This document shows positions 8,058-40,914 of a stretch of 41,177 nucleotides of DNA, piece after piece. The stretch spans positions 1 to 41,177 of the IMG/VR virus record IMGVR_UViG_3300020451_000410. One strand, given 5' to 3'. The position numbers and the translations under genes were made by a program. The notes beneath the pieces were generated by a model. The model searched no databases, was not told where the DNA came from, and was given only the letters and a program-made list of their open reading frames with translations. Positions within the stretch are counted from its first letter, which is position 1, and every line of letters starts with the position of its first letter. This stretch comes from a virus.

Positions 8058-8723
8058 GTGATTTATATAATTGACGACTTCTATCCTAATCCTGACGAAG
8101 TCAGAGAGAAGGCGCTCTCGTTTGAGTATAAAAGAGGTGAGTCAAAAATTGATGGTAAGGTATTACACCCAGGCCATCGACATCTAACCGACAACTCCAA
8201 TGATAGATGGGTATTAAAAAATAGACAATACCTAAAGAATCGTTGGGCTAGTATTGTAGGGACTCGCCCATGGTATTGGGAGAAAATGACAAGTAATTGT
8301 GCATTTAACTTAGGCTTTGATGATAGAGAAAATAGATTTAGCTGGGTACATTCTGATAATGCTATTCAGCGCAAACATCTAAAGAATATACGGATGTGGG
8401 CGTGTGTTATATATTTAACACCAAATCCACCACCAAAGACAGGTACTTTATTACTAGAGAATCCAAAAGGAAGTATCTATGATAATGAATACAAAGAGGG
8501 TGAAAAAGACAAGTATTATCCGCCTATTAGAAATTGCTATTGGGACAACCCTGTAGCCTTTAATCCTGAATGGAAAGTTCACGCAGTTGTAGGAAATCGT
8601 TATAACAGATGTGTTATGTATGACGCCCATATGCTCCATGCTCCAGAAGATGCGGGATTTGGAACAACAAAGGAAACAGGAAGATTAACACAGATAGGAT
8701 TTTGGTTTAGTGAGCGAGTATAA
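8058..8723 (+). CDS. DUF6445-like 2-oxoglutarate oxygenase
   Basis: 221 residues starting at a GTG two bases after the previous stop. The N-terminal IDDFYPNPDEVREKAL, central SWVHSDN (H98, D100), YLTPNPPPKTGTLLLENP, and HAPEDAGFG with H194 followed by R209 in TGRLTQIGFW fit the DUF6445 family, predicted Fe(II)/2-oxoglutarate enzymes found in marine bacteria and phages. In several bacteria such genes lie near natural-product halogenases, but the reaction is not known to me. Overlaps the next gene by 14 bases. Confidence 0.78.
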   Translation: MIYIIDDFYPNPDEVREKALSFEYKRGESKIDGKVLHPGHRHLTDNSNDRWVLKNRQYLKNRWASIVGTRPWYWEKMTSNCAFNLGFDDRENRFSWVHSDNAIQRKHLKNIRMWACVIYLTPNPPPKTGTLLLENPKGSIYDNEYKEGEKDKYYPPIRNCYWDNPVAFNPEWKVHAVVGNRYNRCVMYDAHMLHAPEDAGFGTTKETGRLTQIGFWFSERV

Positions 8724-13253: not shown

Positions 13254-14195
13254 ATGAATAAAGATATAAGAGCATATTTAACGAAATGTCGCGAGTCATA
13301 TTTTAATGGTCGCCCTCTCATACCAGATGAAGTGTATGATAGGCTTGTTGAAAATATAAATACAGATGAAGTGGGTTCAGCTACGGACAGTCGTTTCAAG
13401 CACCCCTTCCCTATGTATTCCCTTCAAAAAGTCTTTGCAAACGAAGACAAAGCCCCCGATTATGGCACAGATGCAGTTGTAACTACACCTAAATTAGATG
13501 GTGCAGCGGTATCGCTTACATATATGGACGGCATCTTACATCAAGCACTTACTAGAGGAGATGGTAAAGCAGGCCTTGATATTACTGATAAAGTAAAACA
13601 TATAGTGCCACAAGTACTAGATAAATATGTATTTAGTGGTTGTTTTCAAATTACAGGTGAAGTCTGCGCTCCAAAAACGATACCTAATGCTAGAAACTAT
13701 GCAGCTGGTGCGTTAAATTTAAAAGATGTAAAAGAGTTTAAACAAAGGGAATTAACTTTCGTAACTTATGGAGTACAACCTTATATTGGACAGCGTTGGT
13801 TAGAAGATATGAAGTTCTTAGATAATTGGTTTAATGTAGTATCTCTAGGAAATTGGGATATATTTCCGCAAGACGGAGTAGTATTTAGAGTAGATAGATA
13901 TACTGCATTTGATAAACTAGGACATACTTCGCATCACCCAAGAGGAGCATATGCTTACAAAACAAGAGAAGCAGGCGTAGTAACTGAATTACTAGATGTT
14001 GAATGGCAAGTAGGTAAATCAGGTATTATAGCTCCAGTTGCTATCTTAGCTCCAATCACTATTGGAGAAGCAGTTGTACAACGAGCTACTTTACACAACT
14101 ATGGTTTTATAGAAGAATTAGGACTAGAAATTGGTTGTAAAGTAGAAGTTATTAGAAGTGGGGAAATTATCCCTAAAGTAGTAAGGAGAGTATAA
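13254..14195 (+). CDS. ligA: NAD-dependent DNA ligase, catalytic (N-terminal) half
   Basis: 313 residues with the front part of bacterial LigA: a shortened NMN-binding Ia segment (YFNGRPLIPDEVYDRL, 16-31), the nucleotidyltransferase domain with the adenylated lysine in KLDG (K80), GEVCAP (135-140), DGVVFRVD (207-214) and AYKT (234-237), and then the OB-fold (ELLDVEWQVGKSGIIAPVA to IRSGEIIPKV). It stops where the zinc finger should begin. The missing zinc finger, helix-hairpin-helix and BRCT domains are encoded separately at 18425. Together they would total 564 residues, against roughly 670 in typical LigA. It joins DNA nicks using NAD+. Leaderless start; ends one base into the next gene. Confidence 0.92.
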   Translation: MNKDIRAYLTKCRESYFNGRPLIPDEVYDRLVENINTDEVGSATDSRFKHPFPMYSLQKVFANEDKAPDYGTDAVVTTPKLDGAAVSLTYMDGILHQALTRGDGKAGLDITDKVKHIVPQVLDKYVFSGCFQITGEVCAPKTIPNARNYAAGALNLKDVKEFKQRELTFVTYGVQPYIGQRWLEDMKFLDNWFNVVSLGNWDIFPQDGVVFRVDRYTAFDKLGHTSHHPRGAYAYKTREAGVVTELLDVEWQVGKSGIIAPVAILAPITIGEAVVQRATLHNYGFIEELGLEIGCKVEVIRSGEIIPKVVRRV

Positions 14196-15353: not shown

Positions 15354-15987
15354 AACCCCACCGGGTCCAGCGTTTACGCTAGAAGAACCCCAACTTTCTA
15401 CTAAAATGGATATAATTAAAGTAGGTTTTACTTGGTTTGCAGTTTTACCTAATTTTTGGGGGAAAGAATGGTGTGAAAGATGTATTGATTCAGTAGATAA
15501 TTGGAATCTTACTGACGTCCAAGCGGGTCTTTACAATGGTTGGCCTACTGGTAGACAAAAGAGAAATATAGGTACATTTAATAAACATTATAAAGATACC
15601 TACTATGGAGTAAGCGGGTCTTGGATTAGACTTAATGACGCAATCGAGAAATTTAATGAAGTAACATATAAGTTCAATTTAGAAGAACAATCTAGTTGCT
15701 TTTTGAACCAATATCACGAAGGTTATGTTCTTGATTGGCATAAAGACAACGACGAGTCAGTTGAAGATTTATTCAAAAGGAGGCCGAGTGCTAGAATATC
15801 AGTCAGTATCTTTTTGAATGAAGACTTTGAAGGCGGTGAGTTTGAATTACAAGGAATAAACAAATTCCCTGCTAAAACAGGAACAGCAATAATATTTCCC
15901 TCTGCGCAAGTACATAGAGGGTGTCAAATAAGAAAAGGAACAAAATATAATTTAACATATTGGAGAAAGGGTTGGAGTGTTAGTTAA
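15340..15987 (+). CDS. 2-oxoglutarate/Fe(II) oxygenase
   Basis: 215 residues. The catalytic domain lies in the second half: CFLNQYHEGYVLDWHKDND gives ligands H134 and D136, SVSIFLNEDFEGGEFEL is the typical strand-turn-strand, and IIFPSAQVHRG supplies H192. The 2-oxoglutarate-binding basic residue could be R198 or K202. The N-terminus (TWFAVLPNFWGKEWCERCI) resembles the entry helix of PKHD-type hydroxylases. GGAG lies 5 bases before the ATG. It is next to a SET protein and a carbamoyltransferase. Substrate unknown. Confidence 0.82.
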   Translation: MTTSKTPPGPAFTLEEPQLSTKMDIIKVGFTWFAVLPNFWGKEWCERCIDSVDNWNLTDVQAGLYNGWPTGRQKRNIGTFNKHYKDTYYGVSGSWIRLNDAIEKFNEVTYKFNLEEQSSCFLNQYHEGYVLDWHKDNDESVEDLFKRRPSARISVSIFLNEDFEGGEFELQGINKFPAKTGTAIIFPSAQVHRGCQIRKGTKYNLTYWRKGWSVS

Positions 15988-17332
15988 AGGAATATCAGAA
16001 GGTTTTCACGACGCATCAGTAGCATTAGTTGATGATGAAGGAGTCGTATGGGCTAAACACGCAGAGAGAACAACAAGAAAAAAGAATGATAGAACAAACC
16101 CAGTATCTCTCAGAAATGTTGACGCCGATATATCCGTTTTTTACGAAAATGTACCGCTAAAGAACGAAAGACGTATAGCACATTCACAAGTCCCTGTTTC
16201 AACAAAAATTTTCGAAGATTGTGATTATCACTCAAATCATCACGAAAGCCACGCAGCAGGAGCGTATTATAGTTCACCTTTTACCGAAGACACGGTAATC
16301 CTCGTGATTGATGCGATTGGAGAATGGAATACTTGCAGTATTTGGCAAGTAAATGGTAAAATTTTCAAAAAAGTTTATGAAAAAAATTATCCATATAGTA
16401 TTGGCCTGTTCTACTCAGCAATCACCAAGCGTATTGGTTTGAAGCCAAACGAAGATGAATATATAACTATGGGAATGGCGGCATATGGAGAAGTATGTGT
16501 TGATATGCAGTATTGCTTTAATGAGTGGGCAAATTGGCACAAAGGCTTTAGTTTAAACGATTTTAAAGGTTGTCACCCTTATGATATCGCCGCAAGTGCC
16601 CAAGCACACGCAGAGTTAGAAATCGAAAAGTTAGTAGGCTTAGCAGCTAACTGGGGAACAAATTTATGCTATGCAGGTGGAGTCGCACTCAACTGTGTAG
16701 CCAATAGTAAGATACTACACCACTATTTTAAGAATGTTTGGATTTATCCAAATCCAGGCGATGCTGGTAGTAGTTTAGGTGCGGCACTATGGAAGAAGAA
16801 ACAACATATAAAATACAGTCCCTATCTAGGCACAAACATTGAGAATGAACAAAACCCTAGATTGATAGTGGATTGGTTACTGAAAAAGAAGGTAGTTGGT
16901 ATAGCCAACGGGAGAGCAGAATATGGACCGCGTGCTTTGGGTAATCGGAGTTTGCTGGGTGACGTTCGTTATGATATTAAACATACAGTTAATAGAATCA
17001 AAAAACGTCAGCAGTTTAGACCGTTTGCACCTGCAATATTGTCAGAATTTGCTGAAGAATACTTCGATGGAATAACAAATCCTTATATGCAGTATGTATC
17101 AAAGGCAAAACATGAGTACAATAGTGTAATTCATGTAGATGGCACAAGTAGAGTGCAGACAGTAGAGCCTGATAACCCTAGCATATTGCGACCGATACTC
17201 GAAGAATATTATGAAAAAACTGGAGTGCCTATGTTGTTAAATACAAGTTTAAATATAAAAGGACAACCCATTGTAGATACATGGGAAGACGCACTTCAGT
17301 TTCAAAAAATGTATGGAGTAAAAGTATTTTGA
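15977..17332 (+). CDS. Carbamoyltransferase, NodU/TobZ family
   Basis: 451 residues from a GTG overlapping the oxygenase gene. The N-terminal Kae1-like part has GISEGFHDASVALVDD and the metal-binding HHESHAAGAYYSSPF, then VILVIDAIGEWNT and ITMGMAAYGE. The C-terminal part has RAEYGPRALGNRSLLGD and NRIKKRQQFRPFAPAIL, the YrdC-like carbamoyl-AMP module. These enzymes transfer a carbamoyl group from carbamoyl phosphate to hydroxyls of sugars and similar molecules. It is roughly 100 residues shorter than common NodU/TobZ proteins; such genes occur in marine phages. It ends TTGA, overlapping the SGNH gene. Confidence 0.9.
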   Translation: MLVKGISEGFHDASVALVDDEGVVWAKHAERTTRKKNDRTNPVSLRNVDADISVFYENVPLKNERRIAHSQVPVSTKIFEDCDYHSNHHESHAAGAYYSSPFTEDTVILVIDAIGEWNTCSIWQVNGKIFKKVYEKNYPYSIGLFYSAITKRIGLKPNEDEYITMGMAAYGEVCVDMQYCFNEWANWHKGFSLNDFKGCHPYDIAASAQAHAELEIEKLVGLAANWGTNLCYAGGVALNCVANSKILHHYFKNVWIYPNPGDAGSSLGAALWKKKQHIKYSPYLGTNIENEQNPRLIVDWLLKKKVVGIANGRAEYGPRALGNRSLLGDVRYDIKHTVNRIKKRQQFRPFAPAILSEFAEEYFDGITNPYMQYVSKAKHEYNSVIHVDGTSRVQTVEPDNPSILRPILEEYYEKTGVPMLLNTSLNIKGQPIVDTWEDALQFQKMYGVKVF

Positions 17333-18424: not shown

Positions 18425-19180
18425 ATGAGCGAAATTTTACCACCAATTGCTTGTCCTTCCTGTGAGGGAAATGTAGAGTTTGTTAATGACATTCTTTACT
18501 GCCTTAACAAGTTGTGTCCAGCACAATGGAGTAAAAAACTAGAACATTTCGGCAAGTCTCTAAAAATAAAAGGACTCGGCCCTGCTACCATTCGGAAGTT
18601 AGAAGTCGAGGACTATCCAGAATTGTATGAGCTAACTGTAGAGGATATTTCCGACAGACTAGGCTCGGAGAAAATGGCAACTAAGTTAGTAACTGAAATT
18701 GAGAAGTCAAAATCAGTTGATTTGCAAACATTGTTGCCATCTTTCTCAATTCCACTTTTTGGTCGGTCAGCTTCTCAAAAATTATGCGAGAAAATTTCGA
18801 CACTCGAAGAAATTTCAGAGAAAAGTTGTACCGAAGCGGGTATCGGCCCTAAAGCAACAAGCAACCTATTAAACTGGTTAGATAACGAATTTTATCTAAA
18901 TGAGTATGATAAAAACTTGCCTTTCTCTTTTGCTTCTACTAAAGTTGTAAAACGAGAAACAGTAGGCACAGTCTGTATATCAGGTAGACTCAATTCATAT
19001 CCCACCAAGGCTCGTGCTGCGGAAGTTCTGGAACAACACGGCTTTGCCGTAAAAAATAGTCTGACAAAGGACTGCACTCATTTAATCAATGAGTCAGGAA
19101 TTGAGTCAGCCAAAACGCAGACTGCTCGAGAACGAGGAGTCATTATAATAAATAACATTTTAGATTTAATTGGAGAATAA
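18425..19180 (+). CDS. NAD-dependent DNA ligase, C-terminal half (Zn finger, HhH, BRCT)
   Basis: 251 residues that correspond to the back end of LigA. A four-cysteine zinc finger opens it (C10, C13, C26, C31: CPSC...CLNKLC), followed by HFGKSLKIKGLGPATIRKL and further helix-hairpin-helix elements (SFSIPLFGRSASQKL, EAGIGPKATSNL) to about residue 165, and a BRCT domain from about 178 (VGTVCISGRLNSYPTKARA...HLI...). It lacks any nucleotidyltransferase. It should bind nicked DNA and clamp around it together with the catalytic half at 13254. Its own promoter suggests a separately made subunit. Confidence 0.9.
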   Translation: MSEILPPIACPSCEGNVEFVNDILYCLNKLCPAQWSKKLEHFGKSLKIKGLGPATIRKLEVEDYPELYELTVEDISDRLGSEKMATKLVTEIEKSKSVDLQTLLPSFSIPLFGRSASQKLCEKISTLEEISEKSCTEAGIGPKATSNLLNWLDNEFYLNEYDKNLPFSFASTKVVKRETVGTVCISGRLNSYPTKARAAEVLEQHGFAVKNSLTKDCTHLINESGIESAKTQTARERGVIIINNILDLIGE

Positions 19181-23934: not shown

Positions 23935-24777
23935 ATGATAGCAATAGATTTATTAACGGAAAAGCAAATACCATTTACTGTCAAAGGGCAGGACGCTATC
24001 ATATCATGCCTAAATCCTGAGCATGATGATACTAACCCAAGTCTTAGAGTAGACAAAGTAACAGGCATGATGCACTGTTTCTCATGTGGGTTTAAAGGTA
24101 ACCTATTTACACACTTCGGTGCACCAGAGAGTCCACTAGAAGTAAAGATACACAGAATTAAAGAAAAGATTGCAAAAACCAAATCAGAAACCGTAGGTAT
24201 TCAACTCCCAGAAGACCGCATAGAATGGAAAGGTGGTCCGTATAGAAACATATCTGAGAAAACTCTTAAGATATGGCAAGCCTTCACTTGGAATGTTCCA
24301 AAGTTTGAAGGACGGATTATCTTTCCCATTCGCGACCTAACAGGTAGAACGGTTGCACTCTTAGGGAGAATGATTGCTGGAGGCGTAGGAGCAGATAAGT
24401 ATTATATTTACCCAAGCGGGGTAAAGATGCCGTTTACACCAGCAAAAGTAAAACCAATAAACAATAGAGTAATATTGGTAGAAGGAATTTTTGATTGTCT
24501 CAATTTATGGGACAATGGTTTGAAAAACACAGTTTGCTGTTTCGGAACACAACAAATGGACTGGTACAAACTATCCCTGCTCAAACTACAAGGAGTGCAG
24601 GGAATTGATATTATGTTTGATGGCGACGAAGCAGGTCAAAAAGCAGCAGAACAAATTAAAACAATAGCTGAGAAGATGGAACTCTCAGTACAAAAAATTA
24701 CTTTGAGAGATGGAGCAGACCCAGGAGGTATGACTCCACACCAAATAAGCAAAGTAAAGGAACGATTATATGGATAG
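23935..24777 (+). CDS. DNA primase (CHC2 zinc finger and Toprim)
   Basis: 280 residues. The CHC2-type zinc finger uses C25, H30, C48 and C51 (SCLNPEH...CFSCG). The Toprim domain has VILVEGIFDCL with E183 and IMFDGDEAGQKAA with D229 and D231, which bind the catalytic metals. It makes RNA primers for lagging-strand synthesis and should act with the DnaB-like helicase at 19965. It is about half the length of host DnaG because the helicase-binding C-terminus is absent; small primases of this kind are common in phages. Nearly leaderless message. Overlaps the next gene by 8 bases. Confidence 0.92.
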   Translation: MIAIDLLTEKQIPFTVKGQDAIISCLNPEHDDTNPSLRVDKVTGMMHCFSCGFKGNLFTHFGAPESPLEVKIHRIKEKIAKTKSETVGIQLPEDRIEWKGGPYRNISEKTLKIWQAFTWNVPKFEGRIIFPIRDLTGRTVALLGRMIAGGVGADKYYIYPSGVKMPFTPAKVKPINNRVILVEGIFDCLNLWDNGLKNTVCCFGTQQMDWYKLSLLKLQGVQGIDIMFDGDEAGQKAAEQIKTIAEKMELSVQKITLRDGADPGGMTPHQISKVKERLYG

Positions 24778-25303
24778 TGAAAAGTTACAAAAAGCAATCT
24801 TTGGATTGCATACTCGTAGATTTGGCACAACTGCCGAGATTATGATTAAGAAGATAATAAATGCAACGGATAGCGATCAGTTATCATTCGACTTATTTGA
24901 TAAAGTTGATAGTAATAGAATCGAAGTTAAATTTTCACGAGTACAAAAGAAAGCAGAATTGAAGATAACGGACAGTAATTTGTTCAAAGCTTTACAATGC
25001 GAAGCCAACCGTGATATTATGTATCATGAATGGCAAGATTACGACTGGGATAGTAATATTCAACAAGTCAAAAAAGAATTTTTTGATATTCTTTTTTACG
25101 GAGTATTTTTTAAAGATATGATACTAATATTCAAGGTAAAAGCCGAAGAAATTGGAAACAATATGAGATACTCCGATAAGCAACATAGCGGTAATACAGG
25201 TGAGGGACAGTTTCATTTAAACCCCCAAACTTTTAAATATCATCTGGATAACCATTTATACAAAACATTAACTTATGGAGAATTATTAGAATGGCTGAAG
25301 TAG
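24770..25303 (+). CDS. Unknown protein, possible PD-(D/E)XK-type fold
   Basis: 177 residues between primase and polymerase. RRFGTTAEIMIKKIINATDS, then FDLFD...NRIEVKFSRV (about residues 41-59), looks like the helix plus D...E-x-K core of restriction-like nucleases, but the match is short. The centre (WQDYDWDSNIQQVKKEFFDILFYGVFF) is aromatic-rich. If a nuclease, it could process replication or recombination intermediates. Overlaps both neighbours (8 and 13 bases). Uncertain. Confidence 0.5.
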   Translation: MDSEKLQKAIFGLHTRRFGTTAEIMIKKIINATDSDQLSFDLFDKVDSNRIEVKFSRVQKKAELKITDSNLFKALQCEANRDIMYHEWQDYDWDSNIQQVKKEFFDILFYGVFFKDMILIFKVKAEEIGNNMRYSDKQHSGNTGEGQFHLNPQTFKYHLDNHLYKTLTYGELLEWLK

Positions 25304-28394: not shown

Positions 28395-29210
28395 ATGAGT
28401 ATAAAAGACCCAGTAGAAATAAATGTAAGTTTAGATGTTAATAAAACACTAAAAAGTACAGAAGAAATGGCGAAAGCAATAGAAAAGGCTGACCCAAGAA
28501 CTAATACATATATGCCTCTTAGTGCAGGTATTGAGTCAACTGCTGCATTAGTTTATGCGGCAAAAGACCCAAATTTACACGCATTCTGTGTGCATTGGTA
28601 TGAGCAACGATATGGAATGTTTGCAGACGCAATGGCGTTTTACACACAGAAACAAGCAGAATACTTTAACTTACCGTATGGTAATGATATGAGTATGCTT
28701 TCTTTGTTGCCACATACTAAAGAAGTACCAATTATAGTTAGTGGATTAAGTGCGTTTATGTCAGTAGTCACAGGACAACCTGGTGGCTTTAAATTAAAAT
28801 ATTTCATGATGGGAGCAAATTCAGAAGATGATATGCGTATGCGCTTACAGTTTAGAGAGTATAGAAAAATTTGTGCAACCTACTTAAGTGATTCGCTAGA
28901 CGGCTCGGGAGTTAAATTAGATGCAGTACGAGAAGTACCACAAATTATAAATCCTTTAGATTTCTTAACAAAAGCAGAATTATATGCTTTGATAGTAAGA
29001 GAAGCACCAGAAATGCTAGATTTAATATGGACTTGTTTTAACCCACAAGGAACTTTAAAGGAAAATGGCAAAATAGTAGGATATGTACCTTGCGGTAAAT
29101 GTTACAAGTGCATGGAATTAGAACAGGCTAAAAGAACAGCCGCAGATGCAGTATTCAGGCTACAGGAAGGAGAAAAGTACTTTAGTCGCATATTGAAGGA
29201 TATGGAATGA
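28395..29210 (+). CDS. QueC-like PP-loop ATPase
   Basis: 271 residues. The PP-loop reads LSAGIESTAAL at about 42-52, differing from the usual SGGxDS. The C-terminal zinc site TCFN...PCGKCYKCMELE matches the four-cysteine site of QueC, which makes preQ0 (7-cyano-7-deazaguanine) from CDG. In phages preQ0 can be used to modify DNA or tRNA. The other enzymes of that pathway (FolE, QueD, QueE, DpdA-like) are not in this window. The altered loop (A for G, E for D) leaves room for a different amidation or adenylation reaction. No ribosome binding site is obvious. Confidence 0.72.
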   Translation: MSIKDPVEINVSLDVNKTLKSTEEMAKAIEKADPRTNTYMPLSAGIESTAALVYAAKDPNLHAFCVHWYEQRYGMFADAMAFYTQKQAEYFNLPYGNDMSMLSLLPHTKEVPIIVSGLSAFMSVVTGQPGGFKLKYFMMGANSEDDMRMRLQFREYRKICATYLSDSLDGSGVKLDAVREVPQIINPLDFLTKAELYALIVREAPEMLDLIWTCFNPQGTLKENGKIVGYVPCGKCYKCMELEQAKRTAADAVFRLQEGEKYFSRILKDME

Positions 29211-29806
29211 CACCCTTTATACAAAAAGATTTTTTATCACCGCAAGAATGTAACACGATTATGCGGTATCACCAACTCCTTATCAATCAAGGAGAGAAAC
29301 CAATAACCCAGAAGAATGGAACATTTTGGGCAAAAATGGGAGACCCCTATTTAGACGCATTAGGATTAGAATATTCTGGAAAAGCGGGCAGAAGATTAGA
29401 GAAAAAAGTAAGTTTAAGTTATAGTTATCTTAAGAAATCAACAAAAGGTTGTGCTATGAATTGGCATAGAAACCGATATGAATGTGAATATGTAGTATAT
29501 ATTCAAATAAGTGATAACCATTGGCCAATTTACTTTTTAAAAGACCAAGACAATCCTTATATAGAAGGAGAACAAGACACAGCAGATGAACTTATTGCTA
29601 TGCAAGGAGACGCCATATTCTTTAAAGGCGCAGAACACACTCACGCTCGTAGATACTTAAAAGATATGTTTTCTACAGGATTATCTTTAAATTATGTAGA
29701 TAAAGATGGATACTTAGATACAAAAGATGAAAGAAGTAGCTATGGGGACAACTATAAAACTTTTAAAGAGTACACTCGACATGGAGCATGGGAAATTGAA
29801 TCGTAG
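29207..29806 (+). CDS. Divergent oxygenase-like protein
   Basis: 199 residues. FIQKDFLSPQECNTIMRYHQLL at the N-terminus and AMNWHRNRYECEYVVYIQIS, then MQGDAIFFKGAEHTHARRYL resemble a prolyl-hydroxylase-type 2-oxoglutarate oxygenase. H87 and H144 or H146 could be iron ligands, but the expected aspartate two residues after the first histidine is Asn (N89). It may be inactive, may use another ligand, or may bind a halide in place of the carboxylate as in 2-oxoglutarate halogenases (where the residue is Gly or Ala). ATGA overlap with the QueC-like gene. Confidence 0.6.
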   Translation: MTPFIQKDFLSPQECNTIMRYHQLLINQGEKPITQKNGTFWAKMGDPYLDALGLEYSGKAGRRLEKKVSLSYSYLKKSTKGCAMNWHRNRYECEYVVYIQISDNHWPIYFLKDQDNPYIEGEQDTADELIAMQGDAIFFKGAEHTHARRYLKDMFSTGLSLNYVDKDGYLDTKDERSSYGDNYKTFKEYTRHGAWEIES

Positions 29807-30392
29807 ACTCATTGGAAAACATGAGTACGAAAGTGGCTATACAAAGATAGCCTGTCATTATGACGAACTAACAAAAGAAGAATATACTACAATACTAAGA
29901 AATAGAATACAAGCATTTGTAGTAGAAAATAAACGAATTATGAATCCAGTAGATGAACTGGATAAACACTCATACTTTCTCTGGATTAACAATCCTAGTG
30001 GGGAAATGATTGGTAATGTAAGGATTATTCCTAACCATCATTCTTATAAAATAGACCCCATAAGAAAATATGTTATATGGGATAGGGCATGGATAAATGA
30101 CCCTACAGTATCATTATTTCCAATACCGCAGTTTGCAGATGCAAATGCGTATATTTGGACTCCTGAATGGGTAAGCAGGGTGAATGGTTGCAGTAATGCT
30201 ATAATGGATATGTATGAAGAAACACACTCAATATTGATGTTTTTTCAGAAATATATGCCAGGACTGAGATATATAGAAAGTAAGCCCGATGAGTGGGGAT
30301 ATGACGGATTTAAGTGGGTATATGAAGAAATGCCCTTAGAGGAAGCAGCACCTATCATAAGGAAGTTTATTGAAAAGGAAACATCAAACTAA
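29781..30392 (+). CDS. GNAT-like N-acetyltransferase
   Basis: About 203 residues. ILRNRIQAFVVENKRIMNPVDE, then HSYFLWINNPSGEMIGNVRII resembles the ElaA/autoinducer-synthase-like branch of the GNAT fold (LR--VFVVEQ--P--E-D...H). The C-terminal half (YIESKPDEWGYDGFKWVYEEM) is less typical. Such enzymes usually move an acetyl group from acetyl-CoA to an amine. The start is unsure; 29781 limits the overlap with the upstream gene to 26 bases, while in-frame ATGs at 29727 and 29742 would lengthen it. Confidence 0.6.
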   Translation: MEHGKLNRRLIGKHEYESGYTKIACHYDELTKEEYTTILRNRIQAFVVENKRIMNPVDELDKHSYFLWINNPSGEMIGNVRIIPNHHSYKIDPIRKYVIWDRAWINDPTVSLFPIPQFADANAYIWTPEWVSRVNGCSNAIMDMYEETHSILMFFQKYMPGLRYIESKPDEWGYDGFKWVYEEMPLEEAAPIIRKFIEKETSN

Positions 30393-30945
30393 AATACGAA
30401 CAAGACAACGTTCTCAAAGAAGACTTTGGGCACTAAAAAGACGCAAAATGCAAGAAGAAAGAGTAAATTGTAAGGAAGATTTAGTCTTCCCTATTTATGT
30501 TATACATAGTGATAATGTTGAGTTAATTGACGGCATACTATGGATTGACGACCAAGTACTAGATGATAAAAATATGCTTGGTACGACTCTAGGGCGTCGT
30601 AGGATTCAAACTCCTATGAAAAGCATTTATCCTCTAAGATACATGATAGAAGACGAAGTTGGACTCATGCGTCATAGGGGGAAGACTTTTATTGATAATC
30701 ATGGTAGAGTTTTTAATTATGAAAAAACGGAAACCTGTAAAATACATTATCATAAAATTCTTAAAAGAGAAAAGAAAACATCAGCTACAGTATTGTGGCT
30801 AAAAGATTGTCCTTTTCCTTTCGCAGAGAAAAGTCCGCCTAATGTAGAATTAACATGGGCAGGAGTATTATATCGAGAGGGTATACCTTGGAAAATATAT
30901 GATTTCTCAACTGAAAGACAGAAATCGACATGGAGAAAAATATGA
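30370..30945 (+). CDS. Unknown protein with basic N-terminus
   Basis: 191 residues from a TTG with AAGGA 6 bases upstream. The first 30 residues are very basic (KRKHQTKIRTRQRSQRRLW), then a beta-rich body (FPIYVIHSDNVELIDGILWI) follows. I recognise no motif. The basic tail suggests DNA or RNA binding. Overlaps the GNAT gene by 23 bases and the glutaredoxin gene by 4. Confidence 0.6.
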   Translation: MKRKHQTKIRTRQRSQRRLWALKRRKMQEERVNCKEDLVFPIYVIHSDNVELIDGILWIDDQVLDDKNMLGTTLGRRRIQTPMKSIYPLRYMIEDEVGLMRHRGKTFIDNHGRVFNYEKTETCKIHYHKILKREKKTSATVLWLKDCPFPFAEKSPPNVELTWAGVLYREGIPWKIYDFSTERQKSTWRKI

Positions 30946-31184
30946 ATATACAGATATATGGAAAGCCAAACTGCCCGTTTTGTGATAAGGCAAAATTTAT
31001 TTCACAAGCATTTATTCAGGAAACACATCATACTTATGAATATAAACAGTTAGGAAATGATTTTGATATGCAATTTGTTGCACAAAACTTCCCTACTGCT
31101 CGTACGTTTCCACAAATTGTAATTGATGGAGAAAATATCGGTGGATACACCGAATTGGAGGCATTTTTAAGTGGATATAAATAA
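30942..31184 (+). CDS. grx: Glutaredoxin
   Basis: 80 residues, the normal length for a small glutaredoxin. The active site is CPFC (C11, C14) after a beta-strand IQIYGKPN, with TFPQIVIDG (cis-proline loop) and GGYTELEAF (glutathione-binding) later. It is a likely electron donor for the ribonucleotide reductase that begins at 40904. The start at 30942 has GGAG upstream and a 4-base overlap with the previous gene. Confidence 0.92.
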   Translation: MNIQIYGKPNCPFCDKAKFISQAFIQETHHTYEYKQLGNDFDMQFVAQNFPTARTFPQIVIDGENIGGYTELEAFLSGYK

Positions 31185-31485: not shown

Positions 31486-32994
31486 ATGTGTGGTTTTGTA
31501 GGCACAACTAATAAGCCCTTATGTAAGCTAATGCTTCAAAAACAGGAGCACCGTGGCCCAGACGGTATGTCTTTCTGGGAGAACGATAAGTTCGCTTTTG
31601 GTCATGCCCTTCTGGACATTACAGGAGCAAAACAAATGCAACCTGTAAAAACTCCAAAAGGAAACATAATTATGTTTAATGGAGAAATGTATGATAGTAG
31701 AGAAAAGAACGATACAGTATGGTTGGGCAAAATGCTCGACAAATATGGTGTTTCTGTACTAGAATGGACAGATTGGCATGGCTCAATAGCATGGCTTAAT
31801 CTAGAAAAGAACGAATTAGTCTTAATACGAGACCAATTTGGAACAAAGCCTCTATGGTGGGGATTTGATGGCAAAACTTTTGAATTTAGTACAAGTTGTA
31901 AATCTTTTTTACATAAAGAGTTAGAAACTAATGAAAGAAAGTTTGGCTCTATGGGAGATGAATGTATTTGGAAAGGCTACCACAAAGTAGAGGCGGGTGG
32001 TTTTTTAACATTTGATTTAAATAATAAATATAAACTAAATAGAAGAAATTTATGGAATTGGCTTACATTTCATAAAGAAGAAATAGACGCAGAAGAATTT
32101 AGAGAAAGAACAAAAGAGTCTATTTTAAAAGTAGCAAACTATGGCAATTCTACTAATAAACACGCTATATTTCTTAGTGGTGGTTTTGATAGTACATTAG
32201 TTGCTAGTATATGCCGTGAAAGTACTAAGGATATCACGCTTTTCACTTGCGGTTATACAAACGAAAAAGGAAATACTCATGAACATTGGGGTTTCCAAAA
32301 TGAAAGTAAAATGGCTCTACAAAGTGCCGAATTATGGGGTAGACCTGTAGTAAAAGTAGACTTAGGTAGAGACGAAAGAATATCATTAGGAAAAACTTGG
32401 TTAGCAGGAACACATTACGCATGGTCAGACCATAATAGACAAGCTCCTAGATATAAATTGGCTAAAGCAGCTGCAGAATATGGGTGTAAAGTTGTACTAA
32501 CAGGAGATAGTGGAGACGAGCTATACTCAGGGTATTTACACCACGATAAAAGATTTGATGAACAATACTGCTTAGCAATGATGGAACAAGCAAAAGACTG
32601 GAGATGGTTTCCTTCTGATGTATTTGAGTATTCTGACCCTATGGCAAATAGTCTTTTTATAGATTTACTTACTACATCAGAGCAGAATATTCTTGCTACT
32701 GACCAAACAGTAGGGTTATTTGGTATGGAGTCTAGAATTCCTTTACTTACACAAAGGTATGTTCATTATAATATGAAAATACCAACAAAAACAAGATTTA
32801 AACAATTACCACAGTACCAAAAAGGTACAACAAAGTACTTAATGAGAGAAGTTATGAAAGAGTACTTACCTGACCATGTAGTAAATAGAAAGAATAAAAC
32901 AGGGTGGAGCAGTCCATGGGATAATAACCACCCACAACAAGCAATGCGTTGGAGAGACGAAGATTTAGAATTGCTAAGGAGATTGGGCGCATGA
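31486..32994 (+). CDS. asnB: Asparagine synthase, glutamine-hydrolysing type
   Basis: 502 residues with both domains of the AsnB family. The class II glutaminase has the N-terminal nucleophile Cys2 (MCGFVG), EHRGPDG and IMFNGEMYDS. The synthetase has the PP-loop LSGGFDSTL and TGDSGDELYSGY, ending KNKTGWSSPW. It makes an amide from a carboxylate with glutamine and ATP. Phage homologues may amidate aspartate, or a sugar or other acid as in WbpS-like proteins, so the true acceptor is open. Start directly follows the previous stop (TAAATG). Confidence 0.9.
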   Translation: MCGFVGTTNKPLCKLMLQKQEHRGPDGMSFWENDKFAFGHALLDITGAKQMQPVKTPKGNIIMFNGEMYDSREKNDTVWLGKMLDKYGVSVLEWTDWHGSIAWLNLEKNELVLIRDQFGTKPLWWGFDGKTFEFSTSCKSFLHKELETNERKFGSMGDECIWKGYHKVEAGGFLTFDLNNKYKLNRRNLWNWLTFHKEEIDAEEFRERTKESILKVANYGNSTNKHAIFLSGGFDSTLVASICRESTKDITLFTCGYTNEKGNTHEHWGFQNESKMALQSAELWGRPVVKVDLGRDERISLGKTWLAGTHYAWSDHNRQAPRYKLAKAAAEYGCKVVLTGDSGDELYSGYLHHDKRFDEQYCLAMMEQAKDWRWFPSDVFEYSDPMANSLFIDLLTTSEQNILATDQTVGLFGMESRIPLLTQRYVHYNMKIPTKTRFKQLPQYQKGTTKYLMREVMKEYLPDHVVNRKNKTGWSSPWDNNHPQQAMRWRDEDLELLRRLGA

Positions 32995-35372: not shown

Positions 35373-35999
35373 ATGGCAATAGGCTTTAATACAACTAAGG
35401 GCTCTGCCCAAAAGTCCAAAATTGAAACTTACAATTTTGGCAATAAGGAAGATCATCACATTAGATTAGTTGGTGACCTTCTACCGAGATATGTCTACTG
35501 GATAAAAGGCGAGAACAACAAAAACATTCCTATGGAGTGTTTGTCTTTCGATAGAAACTCCGAGACATTCAACAATATCGAGCATGACCATGTTCGAGAT
35601 TTTTACCCTGACTTAAAATGCGGTTGGGCTTATGCAGTCCAGGGGATTGACTACTCTGACAAAACTGTCAAGGTTGTTAATCTAAAAAGGAAACTTTTTG
35701 ACCAAATTTTAGTAGCTATGGAAGAATTAGGAAATCCTACTGACGTAGAAACTGGTTGGGATATATTCTTCAAGAGATTGAAGACTGGCCCACAAGTGTT
35801 TAATGTTGAGTATCAACTGCAAATGCTTAAGTGTAAGCCAAGAGCATTAGAGGATTGGGAACAAGAACTCATAGCAGAACTTAAGTCTATGGACGACGTG
35901 CTTCCTAGACCTACACCTGATGCTCAGTTAGAACTACTTAAGAAAGTTCAAGGTGCAGATTCTAACGAAACTGTAGACGAGGAGTTTGACGTATCATGA
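35373..35999 (+). CDS. ssb: Single-stranded DNA-binding protein, T4 gp32-like
   Basis: 208 residues. The layout fits phage SSBs: a short flexible N-terminus, an OB-fold-like core (HIRLVGDLLPRYVYWIKG, then VKVVNLKRKLFDQILVAMEEL and GPQVFNVEYQLQMLKCKP) and an acidic C-terminal tail (SNETVDEEFDVS) for binding partner proteins. The gp32-type zinc ligands are not clear. It coats ssDNA at forks and recombination intermediates. AAGGAG precedes the ATG, and it has its own promoter one gene upstream, consistent with high expression. Overlaps peroxiredoxin by 4 bases. Confidence 0.78.
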   Translation: MAIGFNTTKGSAQKSKIETYNFGNKEDHHIRLVGDLLPRYVYWIKGENNKNIPMECLSFDRNSETFNNIEHDHVRDFYPDLKCGWAYAVQGIDYSDKTVKVVNLKRKLFDQILVAMEELGNPTDVETGWDIFFKRLKTGPQVFNVEYQLQMLKCKPRALEDWEQELIAELKSMDDVLPRPTPDAQLELLKKVQGADSNETVDEEFDVS

Positions 36000-36505
36000 T
36001 TGGAGTAGGACAAAAGTTTCCTGAATTTGAATTACAGGGAGTAAATGAAAATAATGAATTCGGAGTCATTGCAGACCACGATATTCAAGGTTGGGCAGTA
36101 ATATACTTTTACCCAAAAGATTTTACTTTTATTTGTCCAACAGAAATTGCAGGTTTCGATACTTTAGTTGATGATGATGTTACTGTAATAGGTATATCTG
36201 GAGACAACGAGCATTGCAAACACGCATGGAGAGAAGTTAACGGTGGCATTAGAGATATTGACCATTGGTTAGCGGCTGACTGTGGACTCTATTTAGCAGA
36301 AGAACTAGGAATAGTTGATGAAGCTGAAGGAGTTGCTCTGAGAGCCACTTACATATTAGACGACATGGGTACTATCCAGCACGTCTCAGTAAATGGACTT
36401 GATACAGGTAGAAATCATGAGGAGATAGCAAGAACACTTGCGTCTCTACAAGAGGAAGGACTCACAGGTTGCAACTGGCAACCAGGAGACGACTACGTCG
36501 CATGA
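35996..36505 (+). CDS. Peroxiredoxin, AhpC/TSA family
   Basis: 169 residues, a 2-Cys peroxiredoxin. YPKDFTFICPTEIAGF carries the catalytic P-x-x-x-T-x-x-C (T44, C47). GCNWQPGDDYV at the C-terminus carries the resolving cysteine C159. It reduces hydrogen peroxide and organic peroxides with a thiol donor, possibly a thioredoxin/glutaredoxin system. Peroxiredoxins are uncommon in phages. It is tightly overlapped (ATGA on both sides) between SSB and the recombination nuclease, so it is co-expressed with replication genes. Confidence 0.93.
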   Translation: MIGVGQKFPEFELQGVNENNEFGVIADHDIQGWAVIYFYPKDFTFICPTEIAGFDTLVDDDVTVIGISGDNEHCKHAWREVNGGIRDIDHWLAADCGLYLAEELGIVDEAEGVALRATYILDDMGTIQHVSVNGLDTGRNHEEIARTLASLQEEGLTGCNWQPGDDYVA

Positions 36506-37449
36506 TTTTATTTACAGCAGACTGGCACATAAAATTAGGTCAAAAGAATGTTCCTACTGATTGGGCAATCAATCGGTATCAGATGTTCTTTGAACAAATT
36601 ACTGAGCTAGAAAAAGACTGTGAACTACATATCATTGGTGGGGACTTATTTGATAGAGTCCCCTCAATGGACGAACTTACTCTTTACTTTGACTTTATAA
36701 GAGGAGTAACAATTCCTACTATTATTTATGACGGAAATCATGAAGCTACTAGGAAAAACAAGACTTTCTTTACTAATTTAAAGAAAGCAACCTCAGATGT
36801 TAACGCATTGGTAGAGGTTATAGATGAAACCTATATAGAAGATGATTGGGCTATATTACCCTATGCTGACTTATACAAGAAAAATAGTATAGAATCGATA
36901 GACGCCCATATTCTATTTACTCATGTGCGTGGTGAAATACCTCCTCATGTAGTACCAGAGGTGGATTTAGATAGGTTTGACAAGTTTCATACAGTTTTTG
37001 CTGGAGACTTACATGCTCACGAGAATACTCAAAGAAACATAGTATATCCTGGCAGCCCTATGACTACATCATTTCACAGAAATAGAGTAAAGACAGGTGC
37101 TTTACTTATTGATGATAATTGGTCTTGGGTATGGCATGAACTTGACTTACCGCAGTTAATTAGAAAGACTGTATCAGACCCAGACGATATGGTACAGACT
37201 GAATTTGACCACACAATCTATGAACTCGAAGGAGATGTTCAAGATTTGGCAAAAATTAAGAACTCAGAACTATTAGATAAAAAAGTTGTAAAACGACAGG
37301 TAGAAGCTACATTGAATCTTACTTCGGAAATGTCTATTAGTGATGAACTTGTAGTATATTTACAAGATATACTAAATTTAGATGATGATAAGATTAAAGC
37401 AATTATAGGAGTGTACAATGATTATTCTACAGAAGTTAGCTTGGGATAA
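36502..37449 (+). CDS. Recombination nuclease subunit, gp47/SbcD-like
   Basis: 315 residues of a calcineurin-type metallophosphoesterase. The metal-binding motifs are in order: ILFTADWHIKLG (D-x-H), IIGGDLFDR (GD), IIYDGNHEA (GNHE), ILFTHVRGE and VFAGDLHAHEN (GD-H-H). This is the nuclease partner of the SbcC/gp46 protein encoded next. In T4 the gp46/gp47 complex resects double-strand ends for recombination-dependent replication. ATGA overlap with peroxiredoxin and a 32-base overlap with gp46. Confidence 0.92.
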   Translation: MILFTADWHIKLGQKNVPTDWAINRYQMFFEQITELEKDCELHIIGGDLFDRVPSMDELTLYFDFIRGVTIPTIIYDGNHEATRKNKTFFTNLKKATSDVNALVEVIDETYIEDDWAILPYADLYKKNSIESIDAHILFTHVRGEIPPHVVPEVDLDRFDKFHTVFAGDLHAHENTQRNIVYPGSPMTTSFHRNRVKTGALLIDDNWSWVWHELDLPQLIRKTVSDPDDMVQTEFDHTIYELEGDVQDLAKIKNSELLDKKVVKRQVEATLNLTSEMSISDELVVYLQDILNLDDDKIKAIIGVYNDYSTEVSLG

Positions 37450-39232
37450 TTGTTTCTCCTATGGGAAAGGCAATGAAGTTAATCTAGCAGAATCAACTTT
37501 AACACAACTTGTTGGAACAAATGGAGTAGGTAAATCATCTATTCCACTTATTCTTGAAGAAGTTTTATTTAACAAGAATAGTAAGAATGTAAAGAAAGCC
37601 GATATTGCTAATAGATATGTTAATCAAGGTTATGATATTAGTCTTGACTTTACTGTGGACACAGATAGTTATAATATATCAGTTAGCAGACGAGCTACTT
37701 TAAAATGCAAACTTACTAAGAATGGTGAAGATATAAGTAGTCATACTGCTAGTAATACTTACAAAACATTGGGAGAGGTTTTAGGTATTGACTTCAAAAC
37801 CTTTACCCAGCTTGTTTATCAGAATACTAATACGAGTTTACAGTTCTTAACTGCAACAGATACAAATAGAAAGAAATTCCTAATTGATTTATTAAAACTT
37901 GATGATTATGTTGCGTTCTTCGAGACCTTCAAAGAAGGTGTGCGAGTTGCAACTCAAGGGGTAACTGCGCTAAATGCAAAAACCGACACGATAGTTAAAT
38001 GGTTAGATGACAACAAATTGGAGACTACTGACATATTATCGAAAATGGATTTACCAAAAATCTCGGAAAAAGATGAGAAAACTTTGCGTCAGTTACAATT
38101 AGACTTTGAAAATATCTCCGAAAAAAATAAAAAAATAAATTTTAATAATAATCTGTTAGAACAGTTAAAATCAATTGATATTAACTCTTTAAGAAGTGAT
38201 TTACAATTGTATCCTGAGGAGAAAGATATCAAAAATCATGTTGGTGCTATTAGTGCTTGGAAACAAGAACTTTCTCATGAAACAAATATGAGAAGTAAAT
38301 ATGAACAGTTAAAAAACGCTGAAACACAAGAATGTCCTACTTGTGAGCAACCAATAGACATGGACTTCGTTATGGAACACTATAACGAACACAATGAAAG
38401 AGCAGAACAATGTAGTAAATTTGTTAGGCAAGAACAGGACAAGCTAGAGAAACTAGAAGATGAAAATAAAATATATAGGAAAGCAGCCAGAGGAATCAAA
38501 GAGTGGGAACAACTCTTCAACTCTATTGACTCTGGACTCCCAACGGAAACAAGCGATCCAGAAAGAATCCAAGAAGCTATCGACGCGCTTCAAGAGAAAG
38601 TTCAGTTGGCTCGTACCGAGTTGGAAGAAGTAGCAAGTGAAAATGAAAAAAGAGAAAGACACAATACAAGAATTGAAATTATTACAGAGCAAACTGAACA
38701 GTTTGAGATGGAGCTGGGTGAAATTACAGACAAGCTCAGCAGTATTGAGGATAAACTTTCGATACTCGAGATACTTAAAAAGGCGTTTAGTACAAACGGG
38801 TTACTTGCCTACAAAATCGAATCCCTTGTTAAAGAACTAGAAAGTTTAACAAACGAGTATTTGGCAGAGTTTAGTGATGGTAGATTTAGTATCAATTTCG
38901 TAGTAGAAAATGATAAGCTGAATGTAGAAGTTACTGATACAGGCAAACAAATTGACATACTAGCATTATCTAGTGGAGAACTCGCAAGAGTTAATATTGC
39001 GACACTAGTTGCAATACGAAAACTAATGACATCTATTAGTAGAAGTCAAATCAATGTGCTATTCCTCGATGAGGTTAATCAGGCACTTGATGAACAAGGA
39101 AAGGAGAAAATCGTAGAGATACTCCTTAAAGAAGAAAACTTAAATACTTATCTAGTTTCTCATGGTTGGACACACCCATTATTAGAGAAAATAGAAATTA
39201 TTAAGGAAGATAATATATCTCATTTGGAATAA
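37418..39232 (+). CDS. Recombination ATPase subunit, gp46/SbcC-like
   Basis: 604 residues of the SMC/Rad50 type. Walker A is VGTNGVGKSS at about 32-41. Two coiled-coil arms flank a zinc hook, QECPTCEQPID (about 307-317). The C-terminal part has the signature LSSGELARVNIA, Walker B INVLFLDEVNQALDE and the H-loop LVSHGW. It works with the gp47-like protein to process DNA ends. It is similar in length to T4 gp46 and much shorter than SbcC. GGAG lies 7 bases before the ATG. Confidence 0.94.
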   Translation: MIILQKLAWDNCFSYGKGNEVNLAESTLTQLVGTNGVGKSSIPLILEEVLFNKNSKNVKKADIANRYVNQGYDISLDFTVDTDSYNISVSRRATLKCKLTKNGEDISSHTASNTYKTLGEVLGIDFKTFTQLVYQNTNTSLQFLTATDTNRKKFLIDLLKLDDYVAFFETFKEGVRVATQGVTALNAKTDTIVKWLDDNKLETTDILSKMDLPKISEKDEKTLRQLQLDFENISEKNKKINFNNNLLEQLKSIDINSLRSDLQLYPEEKDIKNHVGAISAWKQELSHETNMRSKYEQLKNAETQECPTCEQPIDMDFVMEHYNEHNERAEQCSKFVRQEQDKLEKLEDENKIYRKAARGIKEWEQLFNSIDSGLPTETSDPERIQEAIDALQEKVQLARTELEEVASENEKRERHNTRIEIITEQTEQFEMELGEITDKLSSIEDKLSILEILKKAFSTNGLLAYKIESLVKELESLTNEYLAEFSDGRFSINFVVENDKLNVEVTDTGKQIDILALSSGELARVNIATLVAIRKLMTSISRSQINVLFLDEVNQALDEQGKEKIVEILLKEENLNTYLVSHGWTHPLLEKIEIIKEDNISHLE

Positions 39233-39233
39233 C

Positions 39234-39413
39234 ATGAAAGATGGAGATACTTTTTGGTTACACATATGCCCTTACAAACCTGAGTTTAGACAGTATATAC
39301 CAGTTGGTTCAACCTGTAAAACTTGCGATTGGGAAGAGCTTAGCAACCATGAAAAAGCAATAATAAGACAACAAGAACATAGAGACAGAATGGAAGAAGA
39401 TTATGACTACTGA
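39234..39413 (+). CDS. Unknown small cysteine-containing protein
   Basis: 59 residues (MKDGDTFWLHICPYKPEF...). Cysteines in HICPY and GSTCKTCDW, with histidines nearby, could form a small zinc site. The C-terminal half is a charged helix. The ATG is one base after the gp46 stop, and the gene overlaps the acyl carrier protein start by 11 bases. Function unknown. Confidence 0.6.
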   Translation: MKDGDTFWLHICPYKPEFRQYIPVGSTCKTCDWEELSNHEKAIIRQQEHRDRMEEDYDY

Positions 39414-39639
39414 CATAGAGATAGTATTAAGTACTATAGAAAATCAACTAAACTTGCCAAGAGGTACAGTTAAACCTGGAGGAGATTTAGTTGCAGACTA
39501 TGGAGCTGACTCTCTAGATATGGTAGAACTAGCAATGACTCTGGAGGACTTACTAGATATAGAAGTTCCCGATGATGCAGTCAAAGACCTAAAGCTTCAT
39601 GATGTTGATAATTTAATTAAATTTGTAAAAGCACAGTAA
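39403..39639 (+). CDS. acpP: Acyl carrier protein
   Basis: 78 residues, full length and strongly acidic like bacterial AcpP. YGADSLDMVELAMTLED contains the DSL motif; S37 is the site for 4'-phosphopantetheine. It should carry acyl or other carboxylic groups as thioesters, after modification by a host AcpS. A carrier protein in a phage, placed between the gp46-like ATPase and a nuclease, is unusual. It may redirect fatty-acid synthesis, or serve one of the tailoring enzymes encoded upstream. GGAAGAAG precedes the ATG. Confidence 0.93.
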   Translation: MTTDIEIVLSTIENQLNLPRGTVKPGGDLVADYGADSLDMVELAMTLEDLLDIEVPDDAVKDLKLHDVDNLIKFVKAQ

Positions 39640-40109
39640 TGGTTAACAGCAGACAGAAAGGTCATAAGGCCGAGTTACTTGTTGCCAATATGTTGACGCG
39701 TTGGACAAATCTACCCTTTGAGCAAACTCCTGGCTCTGGTAGTGGAAAAATAAAAGGAGACCTGTGGTTGAAACACCACATAAATAAGTTTCTAATTGAA
39801 GTAAAATTTTATAAAGATGACGCAGTATCTACTAAAGTTTTTACTAATAAAAGTAATAATTTTGTGCAATGGTGGGCTAAAACAAAGCAACAAGCAGAGG
39901 ATAGTAACCTAGAACCTGTCTTGTTCTTTAAGGCAAACCATGCACAATTTTTTGTATCAACAATACGAAAACCAAAACAGCTAGACTATATGTACATCTC
40001 TTGGTTAGGTGCATATATTTGTCTCGCTGAAAAATGGTTGGAGAAAGAAAAACAGGAATGGACAGATGGCGAAAGAATTTACGAGCCTTGGAGCAAAGCC
40101 GACTCCTAA
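39639..40109 (+). CDS. PD-(D/E)XK nuclease, Holliday-junction-resolvase-like
   Basis: 156 residues. SRQKGHKAELLVANML (helix with conserved E), GSGSGKIKGDLWL (catalytic D) and FLIEVKFYKDD (E-x-K) are the elements of an archaeal-Hjc/VRR-like or phage resolvase-type PD-(D/E)XK nuclease. It may cut recombination or replication junctions, fitting its place between the end-resection and flap-nuclease genes. Starts in the stop region of the ACP gene (TAATG). Overlaps the next gene by 44 bases in another frame. Confidence 0.75.
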   Translation: MVNSRQKGHKAELLVANMLTRWTNLPFEQTPGSGSGKIKGDLWLKHHINKFLIEVKFYKDDAVSTKVFTNKSNNFVQWWAKTKQQAEDSNLEPVLFFKANHAQFFVSTIRKPKQLDYMYISWLGAYICLAEKWLEKEKQEWTDGERIYEPWSKADS

Positions 40110-40914
40110 TGGGAATCTGCTTATAGTTGATGGTCTCAACTTAGCTTTTAGGTGGAAACACCAGAAAAAAGAATTCTTCAAAGTAGAATATGTAAGGACA
40201 ATAGAAAGTCTTGCTAAATCATATGACTGCGGAGAAATCGTAGTACTTGGCGATGGTGGTAGTGATTATAGAAAAACTATAGACTCAGAGTACAAAGCAA
40301 ACCGTAAAGAACGGTATGCAGACCAAACAGAAGAAGAAAAACAAGAGTTTCTAAACTTTCTAGGAGAGTTTCAGAAAACAGTAGACTTATGTAATGAAAA
40401 AGGTTATCTCACTATGAAATTCAAAGGTGTAGAGGCTGATGACATTGCAGCAGTCATATGTCTCAATAGAGAGGAAATCGGTATAGAGGATATTTGGCTA
40501 GTGAGCTCAGATAAAGACTGGGATTTGCTAGTAAACGAGAACATATCACGGTTCTCTACCGTAACAAGAAAAGAGACAACAATGGATAATTGGGACGAAC
40601 ATTATGACTTTCACCCAGATATGTACTTAACTTTTAAGTGCTTAACTGGAGATAAAGGAGATAACGTCCCTGGAGTAAACGGAATTGGCCCAAAACGTGC
40701 TAGTAGTCTTATTGCAACACATGGTGATGTATTTGACTTAATGAGTCAGTTGCCAATTGATAGTAAGTATAAATTCATGCAAAACTTAAACGAGTTTGGA
40801 AGTGATAATCTTGCTAAAAATGTGGAACTGATGGATTTAACATATGACCCTGACGCACAAGTACTTGGGAAAGAACAGGAAATTATAGGATTAGTGAAAA
40901 ATTATGTCAGTTAA
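40066..40914 (+). CDS. 5'-3' exonuclease/flap endonuclease (T4 RNase H-like)
   Basis: 282 residues of the FEN family. LLIVDGLNLAFRW supplies the first metal aspartate, KANRK is the clamp-region basic motif, VEADDIAA and WLVSSDKDWDLLV add further acidic ligands, and GDKGDNVPGVNGIGPKRAS is the last metal site with helix-3-turn-helix. It removes RNA primers and flaps, the role of the missing 5'-nuclease domain of the phage polymerase. Start at 40066 (AGGA 8 bases upstream) is preferred to 40009, which would overlap the resolvase by 101 bases. Confidence 0.9.
   Translation: MAKEFTSLGAKPTPNGNLLIVDGLNLAFRWKHQKKEFFKVEYVRTIESLAKSYDCGEIVVLGDGGSDYRKTIDSEYKANRKERYADQTEEEKQEFLNFLGEFQKTVDLCNEKGYLTMKFKGVEADDIAAVICLNREEIGIEDIWLVSSDKDWDLLVNENISRFSTVTRKETTMDNWDEHYDFHPDMYLTFKCLTGDKGDNVPGVNGIGPKRASSLIATHGDVFDLMSQLPIDSKYKFMQNLNEFGSDNLAKNVELMDLTYDPDAQVLGKEQEIIGLVKNYVS

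Follow-up and report, generated by a model that had tools for sequence, protein, structure and literature searches.

An AcpP-like acyl carrier protein within a T5-like recombination operon as probable accessory phage cargo

The 41,177-base virus record from IMG/VR analyzed here, referred to in its entirety as the window, encodes an acyl carrier protein (ACP) in the midst of recombination and nuclease genes, raising the question of whether the protein serves the recombination machinery or is carried at this position for another function. A first-pass annotation had suggested that the ACP may partner the gp46-like ATPase, in a way similar to MukB and AcpP, or may redirect acyl groups to a tailoring pathway. 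The genes run in the order SSB, peroxiredoxin, gp47-like, gp46-like, 59-aa ORF, ACP, PDDEXK nuclease, 5'-3' exonuclease and the start of ribonucleotide reductase, an order that we take to recall the T5 D12-D13-D14-D15 block. The features flanking and including the ACP gene are as follows.

35996–36505, + strand: peroxiredoxin (AhpC/TSA; PF00578, E 3e-23), between SSB and gp47
36505–37449, + strand: gp47/SbcD-like (T5 D12-type) nuclease (PHROG 100, E 2e-44)
37418–39232, + strand: gp46/SbcC-like (T5 D13-type) recombination ATPase with a CPTC zinc-hook motif (PHROG 77, E 3e-89)
39234–39413, + strand: 59-aa ORF with a CxxC motif, directly upstream of the ACP
39403–39639, + strand: acyl carrier protein, AcpP-like, 78 aa with an ATG start and phosphopantetheine Ser37
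39639–40109, + strand: PDDEXK nuclease/RusA-like resolvase (PF24608, E 9e-21; PHROG 244)
40066–40914, + strand: 5'-3' exonuclease, T5 D15-type (PF02739, PF01367)

The first 11 nt of the ACP gene lie within the 59-aa ORF and its stop shares 1 nt, at 39639, with the start of the PDDEXK nuclease gene, so the ACP is probably translated with the operon. These overlaps agree with the initial description of an ACP overlapping its neighbors between gp46-like and nuclease genes, except that the immediate upstream neighbor is the 59-aa ORF and not gp46. The 59-aa ORF had no match in Pfam, PHROGs or NCBIfam, and is missing from several ACP-bearing relatives and from all ACP-less relatives examined. The window gp46 is 36% identical to that of T5-like Vibrio phages.

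ORF 39403–39639 encodes an intact ACP with a carrier site and a predicted ACP fold, bearing out the earlier reading of a complete ACP with a DSL phosphopantetheine site. The protein matches PF00550 above the Pfam cut-off (E 6.8e-9; 36.3 bits versus 20.8) and contains the motif GADSLD at residues 34–39, within which lies the phosphopantetheine serine, Ser37. Its best match among the NCBIfam ACP models (E 1.5e-15) falls under the curated cut-offs, and its score for TIGR00517, the housekeeping AcpP equivalog, is 55.1 bits against a cut-off of 70.45; the window ACP may therefore be specialized. Solved ACPs were also matched by sequence (best E 6e-11). An AF2 model built from 27 phage sequences predicts a four-helix ACP fold (pLDDT 85), with helices at residues 3–15, 37–51, 59–62 and 68–77 and Ser37 as the first residue of helix II; in Foldseek this predicted structure aligned with AcpP of E. 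coli and H. pylori at 1.1–1.9 Å, mostly at 34–39% identity.

Across the 27 aligned phage ACP sequences, in which homologs are 29–72% identical to the window ACP, residues G34–D39 (GADSLD), E48 and D57 are invariant. The C-terminal helix of the window clade departs from that of AcpP and bears its own LKLHDVDNLIKYI motif. The ACP keeps its carrier site while being more variable than its neighbors (gp46 is 81–90% identical in the same close phages). Pairwise dN/dS values, computed where possible against six relatives and among them, range from 0.09 to 0.34, exceeding those of the adjoining nuclease yet remaining clearly below 1. Because homologs occupy the same place in related phages and dN/dS lies in this range, the gene is not a chance ORF, and on this sequence evidence it is under purifying selection.

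To place the ACP among relatives, several hundred IMG/VR loci were gathered by scans with the ACP, gp46, a GNAT-fold protein (described below) and a DUF gene, and the slot between gp46 and the PDDEXK nuclease was scored in a subset of these, comprising 114 distinct gp46 sequences once duplicates were removed. The slot held an ACP in 30/114, was readable without one in 70/114 and could not be judged in 14/114; among the 100 distinct relatives with a readable slot, 30 therefore carry the ACP and 70 have the slot empty or occupied by other ORFs. The nuclease lies directly 3' of gp46 in some ACP-less phages, for example L037; in others the intervening ORF usually encodes a glutaredoxin (PF00462), and more rarely a cytochrome c, DoxX, AAA kinase-like or cytidylyltransferase-like protein. 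The glutaredoxin-like gene of the window is placed elsewhere (30930–31184). Because ACP-less relatives have this position empty or filled with unrelated ORFs, it behaves as a cargo slot, and the pattern suggests an exchangeable cargo site within a core operon. The four rarer types of slot gene named above come from ACP-less loci L215, L222, L225, L242, L251, L253 and L266. Separately, the peroxiredoxin gene (35996–36505) is absent from L034, L035, L044 and others, marking a second variable cargo position.

The proposal that the ACP acts as a MukB–AcpP-like cofactor of the adjacent SbcC/Rad50-like gp46 ATPase draws on the overlap of genes in one operon, on the MukB precedent (PMC8602292) and on gene adjacency, which the first-pass annotation had singled out and which is indeed constant within the ACP-bearing clade. 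Beyond that clade the adjacency gives way: a MukB-type dependence would have the ATPase always accompanied by this ACP, whereas gp46 stands without a linked ACP in the 70 of 100 relatives described above and unrelated cargo occupies the same slot. In a tree of six concatenated proteins ACP presence needs two changes, and ACP-less L037, L269 and L229 fall among ACP-bearing phages, with an SH-aLRT value of 91 for the joining branch. Forcing the ACP-bearing phages into one clade cost 24 log-likelihood units but was not rejected (AU p 0.12), so that nested loss of the ACP is likely, not proven; a tree of gp46 only did not resolve the branching. The ACP-less lineages lying among ACP-bearing ones or closer to the window are L037, L269/L042, L229 and L322/G037. 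In the L269/L042 contig (IMGVR_UViG_3300021364_002464), gp46 is spread over two frames and was recovered as two tblastn pieces, reflecting a sequencing error or a real break.

The closest ACP-less phage, L322/G037, encodes gp46 and has no ACP domain anywhere in its 102,910-bp record. Its helicase, SSB, DNA polymerase and gp46 (86%, 92%, 87% and 79% identical to the window, respectively) are closer to the window proteins than are their counterparts in ACP-bearing G032 or G033, and for most of its remaining genes, too, similarity to the window equals or exceeds that of the G032 and G033 genes. Of the gp46 columns that at least 93% of ACP-bearing phages have in common, L322 and L037 both depart from the consensus at a single one, N69; this residue lies outside the coiled coil, in which no column is changed in both, so no coiled-coil change tracks the ACP. 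Because ACP-less relatives keep gp46 without a matching change, gp46 shows no sign of needing the phage ACP, with the caveat that the same pattern would be expected if gp46 relied on AcpP from the host. In addition, phage gp46 is of the SbcC/Rad50 type with a zinc hook, whereas the AcpP site on MukB is the joint (PMC8602292). With none of the distribution, the tree and the gp46 columns lending support, we regard a gp46 cofactor role for this ACP as highly improbable.

Three further genes of the window are also missing from G037: the 59-aa ORF, a 177-aa ORF (24770–25303) and the ORF at 8058–8723. These were the only candidates for a gene lost jointly with the ACP, and none stands out, since each is absent from an ACP-bearing record or present in another ACP-less phage. 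Elsewhere in the window, genes for a NodU-like carbamoyltransferase (15977–17332), an asparagine-synthase-like amidotransferase (31486–32994) and a QueC-like protein (28395–29210) are kept in ACP-bearing and ACP-less relatives alike. By eye, ORFs 13254–14195 and 18425–19180 resemble the N-terminal (adenylation) and C-terminal (zinc finger/HhH/BRCT-like) parts, respectively, of an NAD-dependent DNA ligase; they lie approximately 4.2 kb apart, with the carbamoyltransferase and other genes between them, and are conserved in relatives at 60–80% and 65–86%, respectively.

Turning to what the ACP may do, the carrier site itself is informative. Apo- and holo-AcpP stimulate the ATPase of MukB to the same extent (PMC8602292), and a purely structural partner would thus not obviously demand an invariant GADSLD; this argument is supportive only, because constraint on helix II might by itself maintain the DSL. 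An invariant phosphopantetheine site and an associated GNAT are compatible with acyl-group handling for some pathway. Domains of a PPTase (PF01648), AMP-ligase (PF00501), PlsC (PF01553) or ketosynthase (PF00109) were found in none of 11 records, most of them ACP-bearing; several of these records are fragments, which makes the absence weak evidence. With this proviso the idea that the phage has a fatty-acid or NRPS-like pathway of its own was rejected, and, given the lack of these enzymes in the phage records, we infer that the host supplies both phosphopantetheine and acyl chain.

We propose that the window encodes a functional-type, AcpP-like ACP that is probably accessory cargo, with its charging left to AcpS and acylation enzymes of the host, and that would divert or supply acyl groups during infection. 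Its position between gp46 and the nuclease would provide expression with the operon and translational coupling, and would entail no role in recombination. Host AcpS would add phosphopantetheine to the phage ACP, host fatty-acid enzymes would load it with an acyl chain, and the acyl groups diverted or supplied by the loaded protein could then enter host lipid metabolism or reach a phage acyltransferase, for which the GNAT-fold protein encoded at 29787–30392 is a candidate. Possibly, the ACP could instead be a host-takeover mimic that competes with AcpP for SpoT, IscS, SecA or lipid A regulators, altering the stringent response, Fe-S biogenesis or envelope control. AcpP binds SpoT, IscS, SecA and MukB (PMC8602292), and helix II of the phage protein is acidic, as in AcpP, with E48 and D57 invariant; however, the C-terminal helix of the window clade differs from that of AcpP and sequence alone reveals no host target, and we consider such mimicry unlikely.

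For an ACP that acts as accessory cargo and carries acyl groups, one candidate recipient within the window is the following.

29787–30392, + strand: GNAT-fold protein, ElaA/LasI/TofI/FeeM-like by AF2 model (start codon uncertain; the ORF opens at 29727)

FeeL/FeeM, LuxI and OlsB-type enzymes join an acyl chain from an ACP to an amine, and the phage ACP might likewise be the dedicated acyl donor of this GNAT, yielding an N-acyl amino acid, a molecule resembling an acyl-homoserine lactone, or a modified target in host or phage. Among ACP-bearing contigs covering both regions, a close GNAT member (E < 1e-60) is present in 17/17; among ACP-less contigs covering the GNAT region it is present in 0/24, with a weak match in 7/24 and none in 17/24 (loci L231, L232 and L234 were left out of this count because their GNAT region may fall outside the locus). 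Presence is, however, clustered on the tree, and the association could thus come from common descent alone. The fold evidence is similarly divided. The GNAT model, of moderate confidence (pLDDT 68; other GNAT models 37–50), gave VIA-align Z scores of 11.8 for PA0115, 10.8–10.9 for LasI, TofI and ElaA, and 9.9 for FeeM; LasI, TofI and FeeM use acyl-ACP, whereas PA0115 and ElaA belong to the CoA-type GNATs. PF13444 and TIGR03694 each touch 7 of the 22 family members, with all matches below cut-off (E 0.004–0.1), so that no LuxI/FeeM family-level match was obtained, and the GNAT family profile finds PA0115 at E 6e-4. The best fold and sequence matches point just as much to CoA-type GNATs like ElaA and PA0115. 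No bacterial relatives of the GNAT were recovered in a genome-contig scan with short, limiting patterns, and no annotated phage matched it.

ACP-less L322 bears on this pairing in both directions. It keeps a member of the GNAT family (E 3e-50) in a record devoid of ACP, so a strict ACP–GNAT dependence does not hold up. This GNAT carries R40L and F44L at positions that are invariant in the 22 other members; the weak GNAT homologs of ACP-less phages retain the R and F, and the change, confined to one lineage, may be chance. The two genes also lie 9 kb apart. We treat the ACP–GNAT pair as a lead and not a result: a dedicated donor role is possible but doubtful, and that during infection the ACP cooperates with a LuxI/FeeM-like acyltransferase to produce an N-acylated small molecule or an acylated target is less likely still. 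If true, the latter would represent a phage-made acyl signal or modification.

The ACP is carried by a group of marine phages, and comparison with about 100 relatives suggests that it is a rather unremarkable accessory gene there. The case illustrates how a suggestive neighborhood can mislead, as the position is a cargo site in a core operon that holds glutaredoxin, cytochrome c or DoxX in relatives. Since this clade offers ACP-bearing phages alongside close ACP-less ones, together with a candidate GNAT partner, it would also make phage ACP function testable; our literature search, in part narrow, returned no paper on the mechanism of a phage ACP.

Compared with known systems, the phage ACP shares with AcpP of E. 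coli and H. pylori the PF00550 domain, GADSLD motif, acidic helix II and (as predicted) four-helix fold, but is only about 34–39% identical in most fold alignments, has no fatty-acid genes around it and, in the window clade, has a loop before the last helix that is two residues longer and a distinct helix IV motif. It resembles the MukB–AcpP system of E. coli in that an ACP occurs alongside an SMC/Rad50-family ATPase, the phage genes for the two being neighbors, but differs in that phage gp46 shows no sign of depending on the ACP across relatives; MukB, moreover, uses the host housekeeping AcpP and not the product of a linked gene. Like the FeeL–FeeM and LuxI acyl-ACP systems, the phage genome encodes an ACP and a GNAT with a LasI/TofI/FeeM-like fold; unlike them, its two genes are distant from each other, the GNAT has no family-level sequence match, and the GNAT persists without an ACP in one relative. 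Phage-encoded ACPs are already known, and those of Erythrobacter phage vB_EliS-R6L (PMC5463345) and Vibrio phage R16F (PMC10152775) are annotated as auxiliary metabolic genes; these and PHROG 5934, an ACP family, share with the window the pattern of a single ACP gene per phage genome. No match to the window ACP in the phage collection reaches 60% identity, and what is unusual here is the location, a cargo slot within a T5-like recombination operon.
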